Below, one piece after another: positions 5,418 through 35,608 of a stretch of DNA of 64,000 bases; the first letter of the stretch is position 1; the number at the start of each line of letters is the position of its first letter. A program made the position numbers and the translations under genes. The DNA comes from Blastocatellia bacterium (GTDB lineage Bacteria > Acidobacteriota > Blastocatellia > HR10), in assembly GCA_025055075.1 (NCBI GenBank), contig JANWYV010000014.1, positions 1-64,000 on the forward strand, written 5' to 3'. The notes below the pieces were generated by a model. It was not told the DNA's origin. It did not search any database and saw only the letters and a program-made list of their open reading frames with translations.

Positions 5418-6647
5418 TCACGAGCGAGCGCTCGCCCACTCCCGCCGCGTATCTTCAAAAGCGCGCATCAGGCATTCCAGATGGCGCCAGGAGGCGAACA
5501 TCACCTCGGCGAATTCGCGCGCGCGGGAGCGGAGCGCGATCATCAGCTCGCCTTGGGTCACCAGACATTCGATGGCTGCCGCCAGCGCACGAATGTCCCC
5601 CGGTTCGACGAGCAATCCCGTCTCCCCATCGCGCACCCATTCCGGAAGCGCCCCGACGCGAAAAGCGATGACCGGCGCCCCATGCCACAGCGCTTCAGCG
5701 CTGACGCGACAAAAGGGCTCGGGCCAGACCGATGGAACGACGACGGCGTGCGCGCAGCGATACAAGTGAAAGATGAACGGGCGATCGAGCCATCCGAGAA
5801 AAGAGACGGTATGCCGCGTCGGCACGCGTGCGGCCAAGCGCTCCAAGCGCGGTTGTTCCGGACCTTCGCCGATGAGAACAGCATGGATGGAAGGCGCGAC
5901 GAATTCCAATGCGCGGAGGAAGAGGTCAGCGCCCTTGTGGGCGTACAGACGTCCGCAGAACAGAACGATCGGCAGAGGAGTCGGTGGGAATTCCGATTCC
6001 GGAAGCGGACGCTCTTCCCCCACGAGCGCAGGCTGCACGAAAATGGGATTCGTGACGATCCGGTCTTCGGGCAGCCCGACGGCCATAAGCTCGCGCTTCA
6101 TGTACTGGCTCGCCACGAGAAGGCGCGGCAACTGGCGCGCCGCTTCGATCCACTGCTTCGTCACGCGAACATTGGCCCAAAGGCGCCAAGGTCGGCGCGT
6201 CGCGCACCCGTGCAGATATGGGGCGATGAGGCAATACGGGCTGAAGGGTCTTTGGCAAACGCGCTGCTGGCGTGCGTAGAACTTCCCATGTCCCGGACAC
6301 ACGTAGCGACTGTGAACGTGGATGAAGGGAATCGTGGGGCGAAGTCGATCGAGGAGGCGAAGCACGGCGGCCTCCTCCACATCGTGCGCGAGGATGACAT
6401 CGGGATCGAGTCGTTCCACGATCCGGCGCAATTCGGCGGCGCGCTGTGGCCATGGTCCGGTATTCGGTCGCAGCGCGGGAACATGAACGCGCGCGGACGT
6501 GATCGCCCGAAGCCGTTGCGTGACGGCCAGGCCATGCAGCAACGTGATCTCGTGCCCCTCTCGCTCCAAGAGCCGATGGAGATCGGCAGCGTACGTCTCC
6601 GTGCCGCCGACGATCTCTCCATGAAGCGTGATGTGCACGATGCGCAT
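5418..6647 (-). CDS. Family 4 glycosyltransferase (EPS locus, GT-b)
   Basis: GT4 enzyme of about 409 residues with start MRIVHITLHGEIVGGTETYA, a typical N-terminal glycine loop. In the C-terminal domain FCGRLYAHKGADLF and EPFCRVSAEALWHGAPVI carry the donor-binding Lys and the E-x7-E motif. I chose the ATG at 6647 because it follows the preceding gene's stop (6658) by about 10 bases; the longer frame to 6824 would overlap that gene. A central Cys-containing segment (YVCPGHGKFYARQQRVCQ) is unusual but seen in some GT4 proteins. Role: assembly of the surface-polysaccharide repeat unit. Confidence 0.9.
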   Translation of the reverse strand: MRIVHITLHGEIVGGTETYAADLHRLLEREGHEITLLHGLAVTQRLRAITSARVHVPALRPNTGPWPQRAAELRRIVERLDPDVILAHDVEEAAVLRLLDRLRPTIPFIHVHSRYVCPGHGKFYARQQRVCQRPFSPYCLIAPYLHGCATRRPWRLWANVRVTKQWIEAARQLPRLLVASQYMKRELMAVGLPEDRIVTNPIFVQPALVGEERPLPESEFPPTPLPIVLFCGRLYAHKGADLFLRALEFVAPSIHAVLIGEGPEQPRLERLAARVPTRHTVSFLGWLDRPFIFHLYRCAHAVVVPSVWPEPFCRVSAEALWHGAPVIAFRVGALPEWVRDGETGLLVEPGDIRALAAAIECLVTQGELMIALRSRAREFAEVMFASWRHLECLMRAFEDTRREWASARS

Positions 6648-6657
6648 CGCGAGACCC

Positions 6658-7833
6658 TCATCCCGTGCGGAGCGCCTCTCGATAGATCGCCAGGCACCGG
6701 CGCGCGACGGCCTCCCATGTGAATCGTTCCAAGACGCGCGCGCGTCCTCGTTCCCCCATGCGGCGCGCTTCTTCGGGATGTCGCCGCAGCCACGCGATCC
6801 GATCGGCCAATGCGCGCGCATCATTGGGTGGGACGAGGAATCCCGTCACTCCGTCCTCGACGATCTCCGGAAGCGCGCCCACCGTCGTCGCGATCACGGG
6901 CGTCGCACACGCCATCGCTTCCAGAAGCGTCAGCCCGAAAAGCTCCGGAGTCGCATGCCGCGTCCCGAAGACGTCCGTGTACACCGAGGGGAGAACCGTC
7001 ACGAGCGCCGCGTTATACTCGCGAACGAGGCGCTCATCGTCAGCATTGAAGATGAAACTCACGCACTTGCCGCGCGCCAACGTCCGCAGCAGCTCCAAGT
7101 ATTCCGCGCTCCGCGTCGCACCGAGCTGCGGCTCCCACAACCGTCCGACGAGCCGCAACTCGACCGTCGCGTCCACGGCTTCGACGAGATAATTGATCCC
7201 TTTGTGCGGAAGCAGTCGTCCGACATAAAGCACCGTCTCATACGTGCGCCCAGGCAGGGGACGAAATCGCTCGACGTCTACGCCCGCGAAGATGATGCGA
7301 TTCTTCCCTTCGTAGCGCGCGAACCGCTGTGCGGAGAACTGCGAAAGGTGCAGGAACCCATTCACCCATCGCCCAGTGTCGAGGTGGTAGGAGACGTCCC
7401 ATCCCCCTCCTCCGAGGTCCGTGACGAAGACGCGTTTGCCCGTGACGCGAGCATAGGCGATGGCGAGCGTCGTCGCGACGACGTGGAATTGGTGGCAATG
7501 GATGACGTCCGCATCCGCGAGCGCCGTGAGGAATCGAAGGCTGACGGGATTGGTCCGCTGCCCACGCGGATACCAGAAGGGGCGGAAGAGCCGCACCTCC
7601 AGCGAAGCCCATTCGAGGCGCGACTCTTGCTCGTCCGCGCGCGCGGCGAAGCTCACCAGTCGCGTGGGCGTCAACCGCGCCATCGCGCGCGCGAGTTCTG
7701 TGGCGTAGCGCTCTCCTCCGCCGAGGATCGAACGTTCGCCGAAGTACGCCGGCGAGACGTGAACGACGCGAATCGGTTTGTCAGCGTCGTTCACCTCATT
7801 GTGACGAGCGCGCTTTCGCACGGGCGCGATCAA
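6658..7833 (-). CDS. Family 4 glycosyltransferase (EPS locus, GT-c)
   Basis: GT4 enzyme of about 391 residues. It has the N-terminal PIRVVHVSPAYFGERSILGG, donor-site YVGRLLPHKGINYL and ELFGLTLLEAMACATPVIAT with the E-x7-E pair. The start appears to be TTG at 7833: GGAGG lies six bases upstream, inside the end of the neighbouring gene, giving a 38-base overlap. A GTG at 7794 right after the neighbour's stop is the alternative. The TLARGKC and VTVLPSVYTDVFG segments resemble GT4 proteins of O-antigen clusters. Confidence 0.9.
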   Translation of the reverse strand: MIAPVRKRARHNEVNDADKPIRVVHVSPAYFGERSILGGGERYATELARAMARLTPTRLVSFAARADEQESRLEWASLEVRLFRPFWYPRGQRTNPVSLRFLTALADADVIHCHQFHVVATTLAIAYARVTGKRVFVTDLGGGGWDVSYHLDTGRWVNGFLHLSQFSAQRFARYEGKNRIIFAGVDVERFRPLPGRTYETVLYVGRLLPHKGINYLVEAVDATVELRLVGRLWEPQLGATRSAEYLELLRTLARGKCVSFIFNADDERLVREYNAALVTVLPSVYTDVFGTRHATPELFGLTLLEAMACATPVIATTVGALPEIVEDGVTGFLVPPNDARALADRIAWLRRHPEEARRMGERGRARVLERFTWEAVARRCLAIYREALRTG

Positions 7834-9181
7834 CGACGTCCTCCAAGATCTCGGCCAAACGACGCGTTAGGGCGCGCCGCTCGTAGCGGCGGATGACCGC
7901 CGGCTGCGGATGATAAAACTGCCGCGCGAAGCCTTCTGGGTCAAGGGTCGCGTGGCGCAGCAGAGTGCGCAGTCGTTCGCCTTCGCGAGGCTCCACGCTC
8001 ACGCCGACGCCAGCTTCCGCGATCAACGCGGAGGCCAATCCCGATGGCACCACGGCGAGGATCGGGCGCCCGGCGGCCATGTACTCGAAGAGCTTTCCAG
8101 GAAACCACTTCCTCCCTCCCTCATGGCTCGTGATGAGCAGAAGTAGCACGTCGGCGGCGACCATGCGCGCCAGCACCTCGCGATGCGTCGTGCGCGGCTC
8201 GATCGCGACCACATCGTGCAACCCTCGCTCGCGCACGAAACGCAAATTTGAGGGCGGCAATCCTCCCACGAAATGCACGCGCCAAGAGGACGGCGTCAAC
8301 GTTTGCTCCTTGAGCCAGGCGATCGCTTCCAAAAACGCCGTGGCCGCATCTCCCCACACCATGCCCGTGTGCACGAGTGTCGTCGGAGCGCCGGCCTCAG
8401 GGGATACTCGCACGAGCGTTCGAAAATCCTCCGCATCGTAGCCGTTCGGGATGACGACCGAACGCGCGATCGTCTCCGGAACGAGTCGCGCGAAGTCTTC
8501 GACCATGGCCTCGTGCACGCAGACGAGGCGATCGGCGGCGCGCAAGATCCATCGTTCCGCCCACGCATCGAGGCGATCGCGGACGGGACGTCGCGCTTTG
8601 ATCGGCCACTGCGTCCAATAATCGCGGAAATCCACGATGAGAGGCCGATGGAGCCATCGCTTGAGCCAAACGCCGAGCATCACCGAAGTCCACGGGCTCG
8701 CGGAGACGAAGATGGCTTCCACTTGATGTCGCCGCGCGATCCGCACGCATGTGGGCAGTGCGCGCATCGCCCAGTAGAAATGCTCGTCGCCGATGGGCGC
8801 TAAGCTGAAGTGATAGAGCGCGCGCAGCAGACGGTACCACCGCGCGCGCGGCGCATCTTCGCTGGGGACTTCGGAGAGGGTGACGGGATCGGTCCCCGTC
8901 GCCAGCGGAGAAGTGAACGAGAGCCTTCGCCGCACCCGTTCGCCTAGGGCCTGCACTGGATTGAAAGGCGCAAGCCGGTAGATGGGGAGATCGGGGGGCA
9001 GATCTTCAAGTAGCGTCTCGTCTCGTTCCTGCGGAGCGAGCACGCGGGCCCAATCGAGGGTGACGACGACGGGCTCCCACCCGAACTCGCCGAGATATTT
9101 GACGAACTTCACCGAGCGGAATGTGCCGCTGCTATTTTGCGGTGGGAACGCCAGAGCGATGAACAAGACCCGGCGCGGCAT
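7796..9181 (-). CDS. Family 4 glycosyltransferase, WcaI-like (EPS locus, GT-d)
   Basis: 461-residue GT4-type protein beginning MPRRVLFIALAFPPQNSSGT, the pattern of the longer colanic-acid WcaI-like group. The central part has IVDFRDYWTQWP and a GT-B linker. The C-terminal donor site carries GKLFEYMAAGRPILAVV. Length and the opening motif set it apart from the other four transferases in the block. The stop lies just inside the next gene, so the pair is probably translationally coupled. Acceptor and donor are unknown. Confidence 0.88.
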   Translation of the reverse strand: MPRRVLFIALAFPPQNSSGTFRSVKFVKYLGEFGWEPVVVTLDWARVLAPQERDETLLEDLPPDLPIYRLAPFNPVQALGERVRRRLSFTSPLATGTDPVTLSEVPSEDAPRARWYRLLRALYHFSLAPIGDEHFYWAMRALPTCVRIARRHQVEAIFVSASPWTSVMLGVWLKRWLHRPLIVDFRDYWTQWPIKARRPVRDRLDAWAERWILRAADRLVCVHEAMVEDFARLVPETIARSVVIPNGYDAEDFRTLVRVSPEAGAPTTLVHTGMVWGDAATAFLEAIAWLKEQTLTPSSWRVHFVGGLPPSNLRFVRERGLHDVVAIEPRTTHREVLARMVAADVLLLLITSHEGGRKWFPGKLFEYMAAGRPILAVVPSGLASALIAEAGVGVSVEPREGERLRTLLRHATLDPEGFARQFYHPQPAVIRRYERRALTRRLAEILEDVVDRARAKARSSQ

Positions 9182-27727: not shown

Positions 27728-28591
27728 ATGTTCGAAGTCCGCGATCTGACGTTCGCCTATGAGCGGAGCGCTCGACCGGTACTCGTCGGGATCTCATTCG
27801 TCGTCGCTTCAGGGGAGCTGGTCGCCATCATCGGTCCGAACGGATCGGGAAAGACGACGCTGTTACGGTTGATGTGTGGACTCCTCCGCCCGCAGCGGGG
27901 TCAGGTGTTGTGGGATGGAAAACCCCTGACGCGGATCTCTCCCCGCGAGTTGGCGCAACGGCTCGGCGTCGTCTTGCAGGAACCGAAGGTCGGCTTCCCG
28001 ATAACTGCGCTCGAATACGTCCTGCAGGCGCGGTTCCCATATTCGAACGGCTTCGGCTTCGAGGATGAAGAGGACGTGCGAATCGCCCTCTCGGCGCTTC
28101 GCCTCACGCGCGCGCTGGAGTTTTGGGACCGCAGGCTCGCCGAACTCTCCGGGGGCGAACGACAGCGCGTCATCCTCGCGCGCGCGCTCGCTGGAGAACC
28201 TCGCGCGTTGTTGCTGGATGAGCCGACGGCGAACTTGGATGTGCGCTTTCAAGTCGAGCTGTTAGCGCTCATTCGACAGCTCACGCGCGAACGGGGGCTC
28301 GCGGCGGTCTTCATCGCGCATGAGCTGAACGTGGTGGCCGAATTCGCCGATCGCGTCCTCCTCCTGAAGGATGGACGAGCGCTCGCCTTCGGTCCACCTC
28401 ACGAAGTGTTCACCGAGGCGCTGCTCCGACAGGCCTTCGAGGCGGAGTTCCTCGTGGATCGCCATCCGCTGAGCGGGGCGCCGCGCATCACCCTCGTGGG
28501 ACCGATCTCCAATCGCCGTCGCGATTCGTCGAGCGAAGATCCCGATCGTGCGGCGTCCACCTCAACGTTCGCGCTCCGACAGGAGCGCTGA
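27728..28591 (+). CDS. btuD: Cobalamin ABC transporter ATPase
   Basis: ATP-binding subunit of 287 residues that powers the BtuC permease on the cytoplasmic side. Walker A is GPNGSGKTT, the Q-loop is VVLQEPK, the signature is LSGGERQRVI, Walker B is LLLDEPTANLD and the switch His is IAHELN. The last 40 residues are an extra, poorly conserved tail. It is followed after 22 bases by the outer-membrane receptor gene, completing a cell-envelope-spanning uptake set. Confidence 0.93.
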   Translation: MFEVRDLTFAYERSARPVLVGISFVVASGELVAIIGPNGSGKTTLLRLMCGLLRPQRGQVLWDGKPLTRISPRELAQRLGVVLQEPKVGFPITALEYVLQARFPYSNGFGFEDEEDVRIALSALRLTRALEFWDRRLAELSGGERQRVILARALAGEPRALLLDEPTANLDVRFQVELLALIRQLTRERGLAAVFIAHELNVVAEFADRVLLLKDGRALAFGPPHEVFTEALLRQAFEAEFLVDRHPLSGAPRITLVGPISNRRRDSSSEDPDRAASTSTFALRQER

Positions 28592-28613
28592 ATTCTCATG
28601 GGAGGGCAAGGAG

Positions 28614-31100
28614 ATGAACAGGATGACGCTTTCGATCGTCGCATTGCTCATGGGCGGTCTTCTCGCCACGGGATCGCCTTTTTCACTCTTCGCCGGGCAA
28701 CATATCGCTTCAACTGGCAGCGCGTTGGAAGGACGGATCACCGATCCGTTCGGTGCTGTCCTCCCAAGAGCTTCCGTGGTCCTCTTGCGCAATGGGCAGG
28801 AGGTCGCGCGCACAAGCGCGGACGAGAACGGACGGTACCGATTCGCGGGCTTGGCGAGCGGTCTCTATGACCTGCGGGTGGAGCACGAAGGGTTCGCGCC
28901 GCGCACGATCCCGAACATCTTCGTGCCCGCGCGTGCCGTGCGCGTTCTGGATGTCGTGCTCTCGGTCGGTCCACTGCGAGAGGAGATCGTTGTGACGGCG
29001 ACGGCGACCGAAGTCCCCCAAGCTCAGCTCGGCGCTTCGATCGCCGTGCTGGATGAGAGCGATTTTCAACGCCAGGCGAAGGTGCACGTCCTCGAACTCC
29101 TTCGGACCATCCCGGGCCTCTACGTCGCGCAGACGGCGGGTCGCGGAGGTCTGACCAGCCTCTTCATGCGCGGTGGGAATAGCAGCTTCACGAAAGTGCT
29201 CCTCGACGGCGCTCCCATCAATCAGATTGGCGGCTTCTTCGACTTCTCCACGCTCGTGGGGACGCAGATCGAGCGGGTCGAAGTTATGCGGAATCCAAGT
29301 AGCGTCCTCTACGGGTCGGATGCCACAACGGGCGTCATCCAAATCTTCACTCGTCGGGGACAGGAACACGCGCGCATCCCTCTGTTCGGATATGCCATCG
29401 AGGGGGGAAGCTACAGCAGCCTGCGGCAGGAGGCGTCCCTGTCCGGGGTTGCTCGCACGTTCGATTACGCCTCGAGCTTCAGCCGCTACGATACCGACAA
29501 TCACCTTCCCAATCACACCTACCACAACGGGACGTACGTGGGAAATTTCGGTTGGCAGCCGAGCGTCACGTCGGAGATTCGTCTCGTGCTGCGCCACACG
29601 GCGATGGGGCTCGGCACACCGAACGCGCTCGATTTCTACGGCATTCCCGATGATTCCTTCATGCGCGGGCGCGAGACCTACGTCGTCCTGAGCGGGCGGC
29701 ATCAGACCGCGCGCCGTTGGCAGAACCAGATCCGCTTCTCCTCCGTTCACTCGATGAGTCGTTCCGTGAACCCGGCGCCGACGGGCGAACCTTTCAATCC
29801 CTTCGGCACTGGCTTCGTTTACCTCGGCGCTCCGGTCACCATCGTCGGCGGGAATGGGTTCCGCGTGCGGGGGCGCGCCATCCTGGATTTCGGGGGCACT
29901 TATCCGCGAACGTTTGTGACCGATACGGTGCGACAATCGCTCTTCGCGCAGTCGGACGTGCGCTTGGGAGAAACGCTCACCGGCACGTTCGGATTCCGGT
30001 ACGAGAACGAGCGCGGTCGTTCGGGCGCGCGGCGCGTCTCTCGCGACAACTTCAGCTATTTCCTGCAGGGGCAGTATAATTGGGCCGCTCGATGGTTCGT
30101 GACGGCAGGCGTGGGCATCGAGGATAATGCCGTGTTCGGTGTGAAGGCGAATCCGCGCGTCTCAATGGCATATGTGCTCCGGCGCGGGGAGACCTCATCG
30201 TGGTGGAATGAGACGAAGCTACGGTTCTATTTCGGCACGGGCATCAAGGAACCAAGTATTTTCCAGGAGGGATCCTCGCTCTTCACCGTGCTGCGCAACC
30301 TGGGACCGTCGGGAGAAGCCTTGATCGCGCGCTTTCGGATCGCGCCGATTGGGCCAGAGCGCAATCGCGGATTCGACTTCGGACTGGATCAGGATTTCGC
30401 GCGGAATCGCGCGCGCCTCTCGCTCACGTTCTTCCACAATCGGTTCAAGGACGTGATCGAGTTCCTCTCGCGCTCGGCGCTCGTGCAACTTGGGGTTCCC
30501 GCGGAGGTCGCGCAGGCGACACCGTTCGGGGCGAACGTGAACGCGCAGACGTTCCGGGCGCGGGGGGCGGAGGTCGAACTCATGGCCGATTTCGGCTATG
30601 GGCTCATGGCGCGCGGGAACTACACCTACTTGGATGCGAAGGTCCTGCGCTCGTTCTCCAGCGATGCGTTGCGGCCTTCGTTCAATCGGGCGTTCCCCGG
30701 CATTCCCATCGGGGCTTTCGCGCCACTGGTGGGCGCGCGTCCATTCCAACGGCCGCCGCATACGGGAAGCGTGCTCGTCGCATGGGCGCGTTCGCGCTGG
30801 AGCGTAGCGGTCGTCGGATCGTTCGTCGGCCGCCGCGATACGAGCACGTTCCTCTCGGATCCCTTCTTCGGCTCTTCCATGTTGCTGCCCAATCGCAATC
30901 TGAATCCGGGGTATCAGAAGGTGGACGTGAGCTTGAGCATACGGCCGCACGATCGCCTCACGCTGGTGGCCGTCGTCGAGAACGTGTTGAATCAGCGATA
31001 TACAGAGGTCTTCGGCTATCCCGCGCCGAAGCTCAACTTCCGCGCGGGCGCGCGATTGAATTGGGGTGGCGTCGCCGCCTGGCGGGACATCTTTCGGTAG
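28614..31100 (+). CDS. BtuB-like TonB-dependent receptor with N-terminal carboxypeptidase-regulatory-like domain
   Basis: Outer-membrane receptor of 828 residues. A signal peptide (1-28) is followed by a CarboxypepD_reg-like beta sandwich (about 35-118), a TonB-box-like EEIVVTAT (123-130) and a plug with [10 protein letters not shown] and [18 protein letters not shown] 22-strand barrel ends in an aromatic residue (Phe-Arg). The plug motif and size resemble BtuB, and its place directly behind btuFCD under one riboswitch supports B12 as cargo. The extra N-terminal domain is absent from E. coli BtuB. GGGAGGG seven bases upstream fixes the ATG at 28614. Confidence 0.9.
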
Positions 31101-31834: not shown

Positions 31835-32926
31835 ATGGCGATTCAGACCAGCGCGATTCGCTTAGAAGGCGTGACGAAGTGCTACGGCGCGGTCACGGCG
31901 CTTGAGTCCGTTTCCTTCGAGGTCGAGCGTGGAGAATTCCTCACGTTGCTTGGCCCTTCGGGCTCGGGGAAGACGACGCTCTTGCGGGTGATCGCGGGAT
32001 TGGAACGACCGGATGCGGGGCGCGTGTATCTCGGTGGCGAAGATGTGACCGAGCTTCCTCCCTATCGGCGGCGCGTGCATACGGTCTTCCAGCAGTATGT
32101 GCTCTTCCCGCATCTGAACGTGTACAAGAACGTCGCCTTCGGGCTCGAGCAGAAGCGACTCTCGCGGCGGGAGATCGCGCGACGAGTCGGTGCGGCGTTG
32201 GAGTTGGTGCGGCTCTCGGGATACGAGCGACGATGGCCGCACGAGCTATCCGGTGGCGAACAACAGCGCGTGGCATTGGCGCGCGCGCTCGTGCTGGAGC
32301 CGGAAGCGCTGCTGCTGGATGAACCATTGGCGGCGCTCGATCTCCAACTTCGCAAAGAGATGCAGCGCGAGTTGAAACGCCTGCAGCGCGAGGTCGGCAT
32401 CAGCTTCCTGTTGGTGACCCATGATCAGGAAGAAGCCCTGGCCCTCTCGGATCGGATCGCCGTGATCGCCGATGGGCGTCTGCAGCAGATCGGCACGCCT
32501 CGCGAAGTGTACGAGCGTCCGGAGACGGCTTTTGTCGCGACTTTCCTCGGAGCGGCCAACGTCTTGGAAGCCGAAATCCTGCACCGCGAGAACGGCGATG
32601 CGCTCTTGGGATTGTGCGGGCACACGGTGCGCGTGCCGCTCAACGGGCGGCGGATCGAGGGCTCGCGGGCTCAAGTGGCCATTCGCCCGGAGAAGATCGC
32701 TTTGCGGGCGCGCCCGCTGCGTCGAACGGATCTCGTGCAATTGGAGGGCGTCATTGAAGAGCGCCTGTATCTGGGCGAAGCCACCCATTGGCGCGTGCGC
32801 GTCGGCGAGCACTACGTCACGGTGACTGAGCCGAATCGCCCGGGCTCGAAGACCGACGCCTTCCGCGACGGGCAACGGGTCTTCCTCTGCTGGGCGCGCG
32901 AGAGCATCGTCGTCCTCTCTCGGTGA
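31835..32926 (+). CDS. potA: Spermidine/putrescine ABC transporter ATPase
   Basis: 363 residues. The N-terminal ABC domain has Walker A GPSGSGKTT, signature LSGGEQQRVALARAL, Walker B LLLDEPLAALD and switch His VTHDQEE. The C-terminal TOBE domain (about 280-360, for example RPEKIALRARPL) is typical of PotA. It couples ATP hydrolysis to polyamine import through PotB and PotC. The gene lies seven bases before potB. The operon's three genes encode all four Pot functions because of the downstream fusion. Confidence 0.95.
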   Translation: MAIQTSAIRLEGVTKCYGAVTALESVSFEVERGEFLTLLGPSGSGKTTLLRVIAGLERPDAGRVYLGGEDVTELPPYRRRVHTVFQQYVLFPHLNVYKNVAFGLEQKRLSRREIARRVGAALELVRLSGYERRWPHELSGGEQQRVALARALVLEPEALLLDEPLAALDLQLRKEMQRELKRLQREVGISFLLVTHDQEEALALSDRIAVIADGRLQQIGTPREVYERPETAFVATFLGAANVLEAEILHRENGDALLGLCGHTVRVPLNGRRIEGSRAQVAIRPEKIALRARPLRRTDLVQLEGVIEERLYLGEATHWRVRVGEHYVTVTEPNRPGSKTDAFRDGQRVFLCWARESIVVLSR

Positions 32927-32933
32927 GGACGAA

Positions 32934-33782
32934 ATGCGGGAGACGGGCGCCAACCGCTGGCTGTTGCTCGCCCCTTCCATTCTCTGGCTGCTTCTGTTCT
33001 TCCTCCTCCCTTTGGGGCTCATCGTCGTCATGAGCTTCGCCGAACGCGGCCTCTACGGCGGCGTGCGGTGGACGTTCGGACTGTGGAATTATCGGCAGGC
33101 GATGGATCCCCTCTATCTGTGGGTATACGGGCGTTCGTTCGCCTTGGCGGCAGTGACGACGGCGCTGTGTCTGGTGATCAGCTATCCGGTCGCCTACTAC
33201 ATCGCCCTGCGCGCCGATCCGAAGTGGAAGAATCTGCTGCTGGTCCTCTCGATCCTTCCCTTCTGGACGAGCTTTCTGCTCCGCACGTATGCGTGGATGT
33301 TCCTGCTTCGCGTGGAAGGTTTCGTGAATACGACGTTGCTCGCCCTGGGGGTGATCGAACGTCCGATGTCTGGACTCCTCTACTCGGACTTCGCCGTGGT
33401 GATCGGGCAGGTCTACGGCGAGCTGCCTTTCATGATCCTGCCGCTTTATGTGGCGCTGGAGCGCGTGGATGTGCGCCTGATTGAGGCGGCGATGGATCTC
33501 GGAGCGAATCGCCGTCAGGTCTTCCGGCGCATCGTGCTCCCGTTGACCATGCCGGGGATCATCACGGGGATCGTGCTCGTGTTCATCCCGAGCCTCGGAG
33601 CATTCATCACGCCGGATTTACTCGGCGGGGCGAAATCGGCGATGATCGGCACGGTCATCCAGAATCAGTTCGTGCAACGGAATCAGCCACTGGGATCGGC
33701 GCTCTCGGTCCTGCTGATCGTCGTCGTGTTGACATTGCTGCTCATCGCTTCGCGGGCAGCCCGCCCGAGGAGAGGACTATGA
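32934..33782 (+). CDS. potB: Spermidine/putrescine ABC transporter permease PotB
   Basis: 282-residue binding-protein-dependent permease with six membrane segments. The EAA coupling loop reads IEAAMDLGANRRQVFRRIVL, and FIPSLGAFITPDLLGGAKS is the PotB signature. It forms the translocation pore with PotC and docks on PotA. The stop overlaps the next start as ATGA. Confidence 0.95.
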   Translation: MRETGANRWLLLAPSILWLLLFFLLPLGLIVVMSFAERGLYGGVRWTFGLWNYRQAMDPLYLWVYGRSFALAAVTTALCLVISYPVAYYIALRADPKWKNLLLVLSILPFWTSFLLRTYAWMFLLRVEGFVNTTLLALGVIERPMSGLLYSDFAVVIGQVYGELPFMILPLYVALERVDVRLIEAAMDLGANRRQVFRRIVLPLTMPGIITGIVLVFIPSLGAFITPDLLGGAKSAMIGTVIQNQFVQRNQPLGSALSVLLIVVVLTLLLIASRAARPRRGL

Positions 33783-35608
33783 GGGCGCGTGCGCGGACAT
33801 CGCCGATCCTCCTGATGTGGATGGGGGCGACCTATTTGTTCCTCTATGCGCCGATCCTCGTTCTGGCCGTCTTCTCCTTCAATGACTCGCGGCTGCTGGC
33901 CGTGTGGCGCGGATTCACCTGGGAGTGGTACAAGGCGGCTCTCAGCAATCATCCGATGCTCGATGCTCTGCGCACGAGCTTGCTCGTGGCCGCGCTCACG
34001 ACGCTCATCGCTACGACGTTGGGGACGAGCGCCGCGCTCGCTCTCGAACGCGCGCGGCGGCGGGCGCGCTCGCTCTCGGAGGCGCTCTTCGTGCTCCCGA
34101 TCGTCGTGCCGGAGATCGTCGTCGGATTCGCCTCGGTCGTCTTCTTCGGCTGGATCGGTCTGCGACTCGGACTCCTGACCGTCCTCATCGCTCACGTCGC
34201 GTTCAGCATCTCCTATGTTTTCTTCGTCGTGCGGGCGCGGCTGGCCGCGTTCGATCCTCGGCTGGAAGAAGCGGCGATGGATTTGGGAGCTGATCCGTGG
34301 CGCGTGTTTTGGAAGATCACTCTGCCGCTGCTCACCCCTGCGATCGCCGCCTCGGGGCTCCTGGTCTTCACCCTCTCGCTCGATGACTACGTCATCACGT
34401 CGTTCGTCGCAGGCGCTGGCGCGACGACCCTCCCGCTGCGCATCTATTCGATGATCAAGACGGGGATCACGCCCGAAGTGAATGCCATCTCGACGCTGCT
34501 GCTTGCGGTGACGCTCGCGCTCATGGCCTTGGCCTTTCGCATCGAGCGACGGGGGATGACGCGCACGAATTTGGTGCTCGTTGGACTCATTCTCCTTGGG
34601 CTCGTGGGCTTCGCCTTCGGCGACATCGCCACGCGGCGCCCGCGCGCGACGTTGAACCTGCTCATTTGGTCCAATTACATCTCGCCGCGCGTCGTGCGCG
34701 CCTTCGAGGAGAAGACCGGAGTTCGGGTGAACATCGAGACCTATGATTCCAACGAAGCGCTTCTGGCCAAGCTGCAGGCGGGCGTGGTCGCTTACGACCT
34801 CATCGTCCCGAGCGACTACATGGTGCGCATCCTGATTCGGGAGAACCTTCTGCGACCGCTCGAGCTGACGCGGATACCGAATCTCCGACATCTCGATCCT
34901 TCGGCCCTCGGGCTCCCCTTCGATCCGACGAACGCTTATTCGCTCCCCTATACGCGTGGGGTCACGGGCATCGGATACCGCAAGGACAAAATCACCGATC
35001 CCATCCAAAGCTGGGCCGATCTCTGGGACGCGCGGTGGCGCGATCGCATCGCGATGCTCGACGACATGCGCGAGGCGTTCGGCGCTGCGCTGAAACTCCT
35101 CGGATATTCCATCAACAGCACCGATCCGGAGCAACTTCGACGCGCGCGCGATCTGCTGCAGCGACAGAAGCCTCTGGTGCGCGCCTACGACAGCGCGAAT
35201 TTCGATCAGCTCCTGTTGAGCGGCGAAGCGTGGATCGCCCAAGCCTGGGATGGGCAGATCGTCAAAGCGCGGCGAGAGAATCCGAATATCGAGTTCGTGA
35301 TCCCCCGCGAGGGGACGACGCTCATCGTGGACAATCTCTGCATCCCGCGCTCGGCCGAACGCCCCGATCTCGCGCATGAGTTCATTAATTTCTTGCTGGA
35401 CCCGGATATCGCCGCCGAGAACATGAACGACATCCTCTACCTCATGCCCAACCGTTCGGCGTGGCCGCGGCTGCGTCCCGAGTTGCAGCGACATCCGATC
35501 TTCTCCATCCCGCCCGAGGTATTGCGTCGAAGCGAATACCTGCAAGACCTCGGTCCGACGACCGTGCTCTATGATCGTTACTGGACCGAGGTGAAACTCG
35601 CGCGGTGA
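33779..35608 (+). CDS. potCD: Fused PotC permease - PotD polyamine-binding protein
   Basis: A single 609-residue frame holding two transporter parts. Residues 1-255 are a PotC permease with six membrane segments and the EAA loop EEAAMDLGADPWRVFWKITL (163-182). Residues 264-280 form a seventh hydrophobic helix. Residues about 290-609 are a PotD-like binding protein (LLIWSNYISPRVVRAFEEKT, YDLIVPSDYMV, LPYTRGVTGIGYRKD, LCIPRSAE). Since the PotC C-terminus is cytoplasmic, one more helix places PotD in the periplasm, so the topology works. No stop, frameshift or internal start with ribosome site is visible at the joint. No separate potD is in the operon. Confidence 0.93.
   Translation: MRARARTSPILLMWMGATYLFLYAPILVLAVFSFNDSRLLAVWRGFTWEWYKAALSNHPMLDALRTSLLVAALTTLIATTLGTSAALALERARRRARSLSEALFVLPIVVPEIVVGFASVVFFGWIGLRLGLLTVLIAHVAFSISYVFFVVRARLAAFDPRLEEAAMDLGADPWRVFWKITLPLLTPAIAASGLLVFTLSLDDYVITSFVAGAGATTLPLRIYSMIKTGITPEVNAISTLLLAVTLALMALAFRIERRGMTRTNLVLVGLILLGLVGFAFGDIATRRPRATLNLLIWSNYISPRVVRAFEEKTGVRVNIETYDSNEALLAKLQAGVVAYDLIVPSDYMVRILIRENLLRPLELTRIPNLRHLDPSALGLPFDPTNAYSLPYTRGVTGIGYRKDKITDPIQSWADLWDARWRDRIAMLDDMREAFGAALKLLGYSINSTDPEQLRRARDLLQRQKPLVRAYDSANFDQLLLSGEAWIAQAWDGQIVKARRENPNIEFVIPREGTTLIVDNLCIPRSAERPDLAHEFINFLLDPDIAAENMNDILYLMPNRSAWPRLRPELQRHPIFSIPPEVLRRSEYLQDLGPTTVLYDRYWTEVKLAR

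Follow-up and report, generated by a model that had tools for sequence, protein, structure and literature searches.

The sections of PMC11065425 that deal with the architecture of OpuA (OpuABC), the glycine betaine importer of the monoderm Lactococcus lactis, describe a transmembrane anchoring helix, an 11-residue soluble linker and a binding domain, whose local concentration is estimated at 4 mM. Among polyamine importers, the relevant part of PMC3177781 records a potCD gene in mycoplasmas (MCAP_0200), which joins the PotC and PotD activities in one polypeptide in organisms that have no outer membrane. In Escherichia coli PotD-PotABC (8y5h, 8y5i), PotD is a separate soluble periplasmic protein, and the Brucella account, in the part that bears on it, lists potC and, as a gene of its own, the binding protein. 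The literature searched yielded no account of PotC fused to PotD in a diderm. Here we describe a potA-potB-potCD operon in a 64,000-nucleotide stretch of DNA from a Blastocatellia bacterium (the window). Its last gene encodes, in one frame, a permease, a putative anchor helix, a short linker and a binding domain predicted to lie outside the membrane, which is the layout of OpuA. The two systems nevertheless differ: their permeases and binding proteins belong to different families, their ligands differ, OpuA carries two binding domains per transporter where the PotCD system has one, and the PotCD host is a diderm. The likeness to the E. coli importer lies in the subunit set, the PotD and PotC folds, most pocket residues, and the Tyr and Lys of the scoop loop.

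The fused gene potCD is a single open frame of 609 codons (33779-35608), the third and last gene of a tight operon in which 7 bases separate potA and potB, and the potB stop and the potCD start overlap as ATGA. The features are, by window position:

31835..32926, + strand, potA, ATPase subunit, 363 aa; TIGR01187 at 364.6 bits, above the cut-off of 355.6
32934..33782, + strand, potB, permease subunit, 282 aa; best NCBIfam PotB match PRK09497 at 261 bits, below the cut-off of 348
33779..35608, + strand, potCD fusion, 609 aa; from Pfam, NCBIfam and the AlphaFold2 model
33779..34552, + strand, PotC part, residues 1-258, six membrane helices; from domain matches and the model
34562..34621, + strand, added helix, putative anchor, residues 262-281, RTNLVLVGLILLGLVGFAFG; from the model helix and hydrophobicity
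34613..34621, + strand, A-x-G, residues 279-281, possible signal peptidase I site; small residues in rows of the class
34622..34648, + strand, predicted periplasmic linker, about residues 282-290; from the helix end at 281 to the first PotD strand at 290 in the model
34649..35605, + strand, PotD part, residues 291-609; from phmmer and Foldseek to E. coli PotD

Homologs of PotA, PotB, PotC and PotD, the gene set of a PotABCD-type importer, are encoded together. Within potCD, Pfam places BPD_transp_1 at residues 79-253 and SBP_bac_8 at 306-572, while NCBIfam places PotC at 12-258 (246.5 bits, curated cut-off 326) and PotD at 286-608 (229.7 bits, curated cut-off 582), and the PotD part matches E. 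coli PotD (8y5h_E) by phmmer at 1.3e-64. Since the equivalog cut-offs of PotB, PotC and PotD are all missed, we class the set as Pot-like and not as those equivalogs. An earlier note on this DNA had reported a natural PotC-PotD fusion in the 609-residue frame, without a separate potD, in a diderm, and these three points hold. The frame is open and conserved across the class, and both tblastn and Pfam SBP_bac_8 find one PotD-like place, and no second PotD, across the whole genome, which spans 3.02 Mb and is 98.8% complete. The window also encodes a TonB-dependent receptor with an N-terminal CarboxypepD_reg domain (28548-31100), adjoining an ABC ATPase (27728-28591); judged by this receptor, the host is a diderm. 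We consider it likely that potA-potB-potCD encodes a type I ABC polyamine importer whose binding protein is built into the permease by an anchoring helix.

The AlphaFold2 model represents PotCD alone, without PotB or PotA; its input alignment comprised 72 sequences, 6 of them fused and 66 split halves, and it reached a mean pLDDT of 86.5 and a pTM of 0.76. The six PotC helices span residues 9-32, 58-91, 94-126 (in two pieces), 132-156, 173-201 and 232-258. The single added helix, which the earlier note had placed at 264-280, spans 262-281 in the model, following PotC helix 6 and preceding the first strand of PotD, and the PotD domain begins at about residue 290. Over 19 residues, the mean Kyte-Doolittle hydrophobicity of the added helix is 2.18, versus 2.17 for PotC helix 6. 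Foldseek aligned the model with E. coli PotD (8y5i_E, TM by target 0.93) and PotC (8y5f_C, TM by target 0.88); as the VIA-align rows span only about residues 286-609, the comparison of the permease part rests on Foldseek. The parallel with the mycoplasma PotCD drawn by the earlier note stands in that such fusions are known there, but the layout differs: the mycoplasma family model NF043073 has 1021 positions, and PotCD matches its PotC region at 15-239 and its PotD region at 605-673, with a gap of about 365 positions between the two. The whole PotCD scored 248.6 bits and the best piece in the genome search 171 bits, where the cut-off is 1250.

A fusion of this kind could be an artefact of an assembly or sequencing error that conceals a stop or a frameshift at the joint. 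Nothing was found in favour of this, and we give it practically no weight, as cross-genome comparison shows the joint likewise open in 33 Acidobacteriota rows from different genomes, including the named records L033-L035 and L037, with PotC and PotD kept in one frame in each. In three further rows of the same genus (L004, L005, L006), all 609 codons are open without indels. The PotC and PotD parts differ within the genus mainly at third codon positions; the joint itself (residues 251-291) evolves more loosely, with a clear third-position excess in only 2 of 6 pairs.

The fusion is not singular: it proved to be shared by the class and to recur elsewhere in the phylum and in two Bacillota. A search of 162 genomes of the class (match threshold E <= 1e-20) returned 27 with a match. 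The whole protein lies in one frame in 25 of them; G004 has it spread over two contigs with the frame unbroken over the joint (L013), and G025 retains only a C-terminal piece at a contig end. The frame thus runs unbroken through the joint in 26 of the 27, the last being cut by the contig edge, which speaks against the missed stop about which the note had cautioned. No split ortholog was found in the 27 genomes, so that the fused form is that of every readable ortholog in the class. One member, G036, encodes beside the fused set an additional, distant Pot-like set in separate frames (L072, contig C18, ~6211-8836; PotC 39% and PotB 38% identity). In a draw across the phylum, 69 of 396 genomes matched, of which 21 kept a single frame through the joint, 8 of these belonging to genomes from outside the class, and by our reading of the listing about two dozen more had PotC and PotD in separate frames; nine split Acidobacteriota loci (L081-L089) were inspected individually. 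A scan of genome contigs yielded 38 loci, comprising 5 fused (L033-L037, with L036 cut by the contig) and 33 split, the latter being Bacillota by record label except L043 ('uncultured bacterium'). The record of L037 (JAAFHI010000004.1) has an Actinomycetota title and an 'Acidobacteria' scaffold name, and its locus is the same as that of class member G048; it is probably mislabelled. Of 299 genomes drawn around a Bacillota member, 89 matched, and two of the loci opened were fused (L100, L101); these represent a separate PotC-PotD fusion in two Bacillota genomes, which likewise has an added hydrophobic segment and lacks a lipobox Cys. Because tblastn on plasmids merges separate genes into one place, plasmid matches were excluded from the fusion counts; in the five plasmid regions read, three were annotated as separate genes and two (L104, L105) had separate frames.

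Comparison of fused and split rows bears on where the added helix came from. A Cys ends the hydrophobic N-terminal segment in all nine split Acidobacteriota PotDs inspected (seven by a loose pattern, two by eye), which gives the split relatives within the phylum the appearance of lipoproteins that may be lipidated. At the corresponding segment end, none of the 35 fused rows has a Cys; eight have one within the segment, L019 being the only one of the eight to fit the loose pattern. The segment occupies the same position in fused and split rows, with a mean hydrophobicity of 2.02 versus 1.96. Given this shared place, the similar hydrophobicity and the Cys lost in the fused rows, the linker helix is most simply read as the former PotD lipoprotein signal segment whose lipobox was lost, and we infer that a lipid anchor seems to have been exchanged for a transmembrane one. 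The contrast between a free periplasmic PotD pool and a tether is weakened by the lipoprotein-like appearance of the split relatives; the change was probably from a lipid tether to a protein tether rather than from a free pool to a tether.

Because the segment is about equally hydrophobic in fused and split rows, hydrophobicity alone cannot separate an anchor from a signal peptide. The added helix could instead serve as a signal peptide within the chain; signal peptidase I would then cut after A-F-G (residue 281) and release a soluble PotD made 1:1 with PotC. Small residues occupy positions 279 and 281 in 24 of 25 class rows, the mean entropy falls from 2.19 bits over 264-275 to 0.72 at 279 and 1.15 at 281, and split PotDs bear cleavable-looking signals at the corresponding place. 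However, position 282 is Pro in 8 of 25 class rows (Gly in 13), and a Pro after the site blocks signal peptidase I; residue 281 is usually Gly and not Ala (19 of 25 class rows), which is unusual for such sites. The small-x-small pattern is also absent in this register from seven of the eight fused Acidobacteriota rows outside the class (L073-L080), L073 being the exception. Pro at 282 and the preference for Gly at 281 argue against cleavage, but only for part of the rows, and the pattern may reflect a hinge, helix packing or a signal peptidase I site. Overall, we regard release by cleavage as improbable. A related reading, to which we grant slightly less, is that the Acidobacteriota PotCD is a processed polyprotein, in which the fusion would serve to fix a 1:1 ratio of permease to binding protein and not to tether, and the clades with Pro after the site would have made the segment a permanent anchor. 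A cleaved fusion has a precedent in FbcH, the cytochrome b-c1 polyprotein of Bradyrhizobium, and if the polyprotein reading were true, cleaved and anchored outcomes would both occur within one family. The permanent periplasmic tether proposed in the earlier note thus stands insofar as the helix is topologically suited to it; 'permanently' goes a step further, as a signal peptidase I cut is possible.

Translation might also begin internally at Met260, immediately ahead of the helix, and yield a free PotD alongside the fused protein. An in-frame ATG is present at codon 260 in all four full-length rows of the genus (L001, L004, L005, L006), and elsewhere 3 of the 35 fused rows (L009, L075, L077) have an in-frame start preceded by a Shine-Dalgarno-like motif. 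Yet none of the four same-genus rows has such a motif before codon 260, a start codon at this place is conserved in none of the other rows, the product would lack a lipobox Cys, and no conserved in-frame start precedes the helix across the 35 fused rows. Unconserved beyond the genus and without a Shine-Dalgarno-like motif, the Met260 start was rejected as very improbable. In L077, which represents a separate fusion, the in-frame ATG with its Shine-Dalgarno-like motif suggests that the old potD start may persist.

The comparison of fused and split forms that the earlier note had proposed was made on a tree of 35 fused and 31 split rows, 66 in all, built from PotC and PotD with the joint excluded. 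It requires at least 4 changes of state, and the well-supported branches also force 4. The fused rows fall into a large Acidobacteriota clade of 30 rows, two more lines of that phylum (L077, and L078 with L080) and the Bacillota pair L100 and L101. The tree was built by a quick method and has long branches (L108, L106, L104, L107, L079); it is unrooted, so that gain and loss are formally indistinguishable, and we infer that the fused state is derived because split forms are widely spread. It leaves out L033-L037, whose genomes apparently are already present as other rows, as well as L013, L029, L071, L072, L102, repeated own loci, unrelated permease loci and 23 of the 33 split loci of the contig scan. 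Direct descent from the mycoplasma PotCD was rejected: the family model NF043073 fails, and on this tree, which has no mycoplasma row, the Bacillota fusions stand apart from those of Acidobacteriota. Operon structure varies as well. In families f4 (6 of 6) and f6 (7 of 7 genomes with both genes), potB is either on a different contig from potCD or separated from it by 0.5 Mb or more; G048 (f6) has no PotB match, and G025 (f4) is outside this comparison. In G024, for example, potCD is at C1:2154637 and potB at C1:692353. With potB so remote in both families, the fusion holds PotC and PotD together despite the break-up of the operon.

Under the preferred, anchored reading, the segment would enter the inner membrane from the cytoplasm, where PotC ends, and cross it, so that PotD would hang in the periplasm from a linker some 8-10 residues long; seven helices, if uncut, would make PotD periplasmic. 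PotD would then capture a polyamine and dock on PotB and PotC in the manner of the E. coli complex; the scoop loop of PotC would displace the ligand, and PotD would swing back on its leash. Each transporter would have one PotD, no second one being encoded; one binding protein per pore would follow from the anatomy if the chain is uncut. With the OpuA volume formula and a linker of 8-10 residues, the local PotD concentration at the docking site comes to about 5-7 mM. In the E. coli structures, as covered in the relevant part of PMC11414716, it is chiefly the C-lobe by which PotD is held, and the scoop loop of PotC reaches into the pocket with Y219 and K223, which Y223 and K227 of the PotC part match by motif.

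Of 13 pocket sites examined, 9 are identical to E. coli PotD (W34, Y37, S83, Y85, D168, E171, W229, D257 and Y293 in E. coli numbering), and T35 is replaced by Ser. E. coli W255, E36 and Q327 correspond here to I516, N299 and L588; the ligand is predicted to be a polyamine by family, its exact identity being uncertain owing to these replacements. According to the part of PMC8666671 that concerns it, the residue at the W255 position tunes how tightly and how specifically PotF and PotD bind. In fused Acidobacteriota rows, the position of I516 (window 35324-35326) is I, V, T, A, F, S, Y or W, and pocket specificity may vary among them. A need for uptake arising from absent polyamine synthesis was considered and found unsupported, as an AdoMet decarboxylase match is encoded and a Spermine_synth match is present. 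The latter (G000, contig C15:41459-41923) lies within a 2183-residue open frame.

Because OpuA and GlnPQ already show covalent tethering, PotCD is no new transport principle but a conserved, recurrent variant of a known design. Within a diderm phylum, it is a clear example of a permease with its binding protein built in, and suggests a route by which a lipoprotein signal could become a transmembrane anchor through the loss of one Cys. Since both states occur within one phylum and the tree requires four or more changes between them, the family offers a useful natural series on the effect of tethering in ABC importers.
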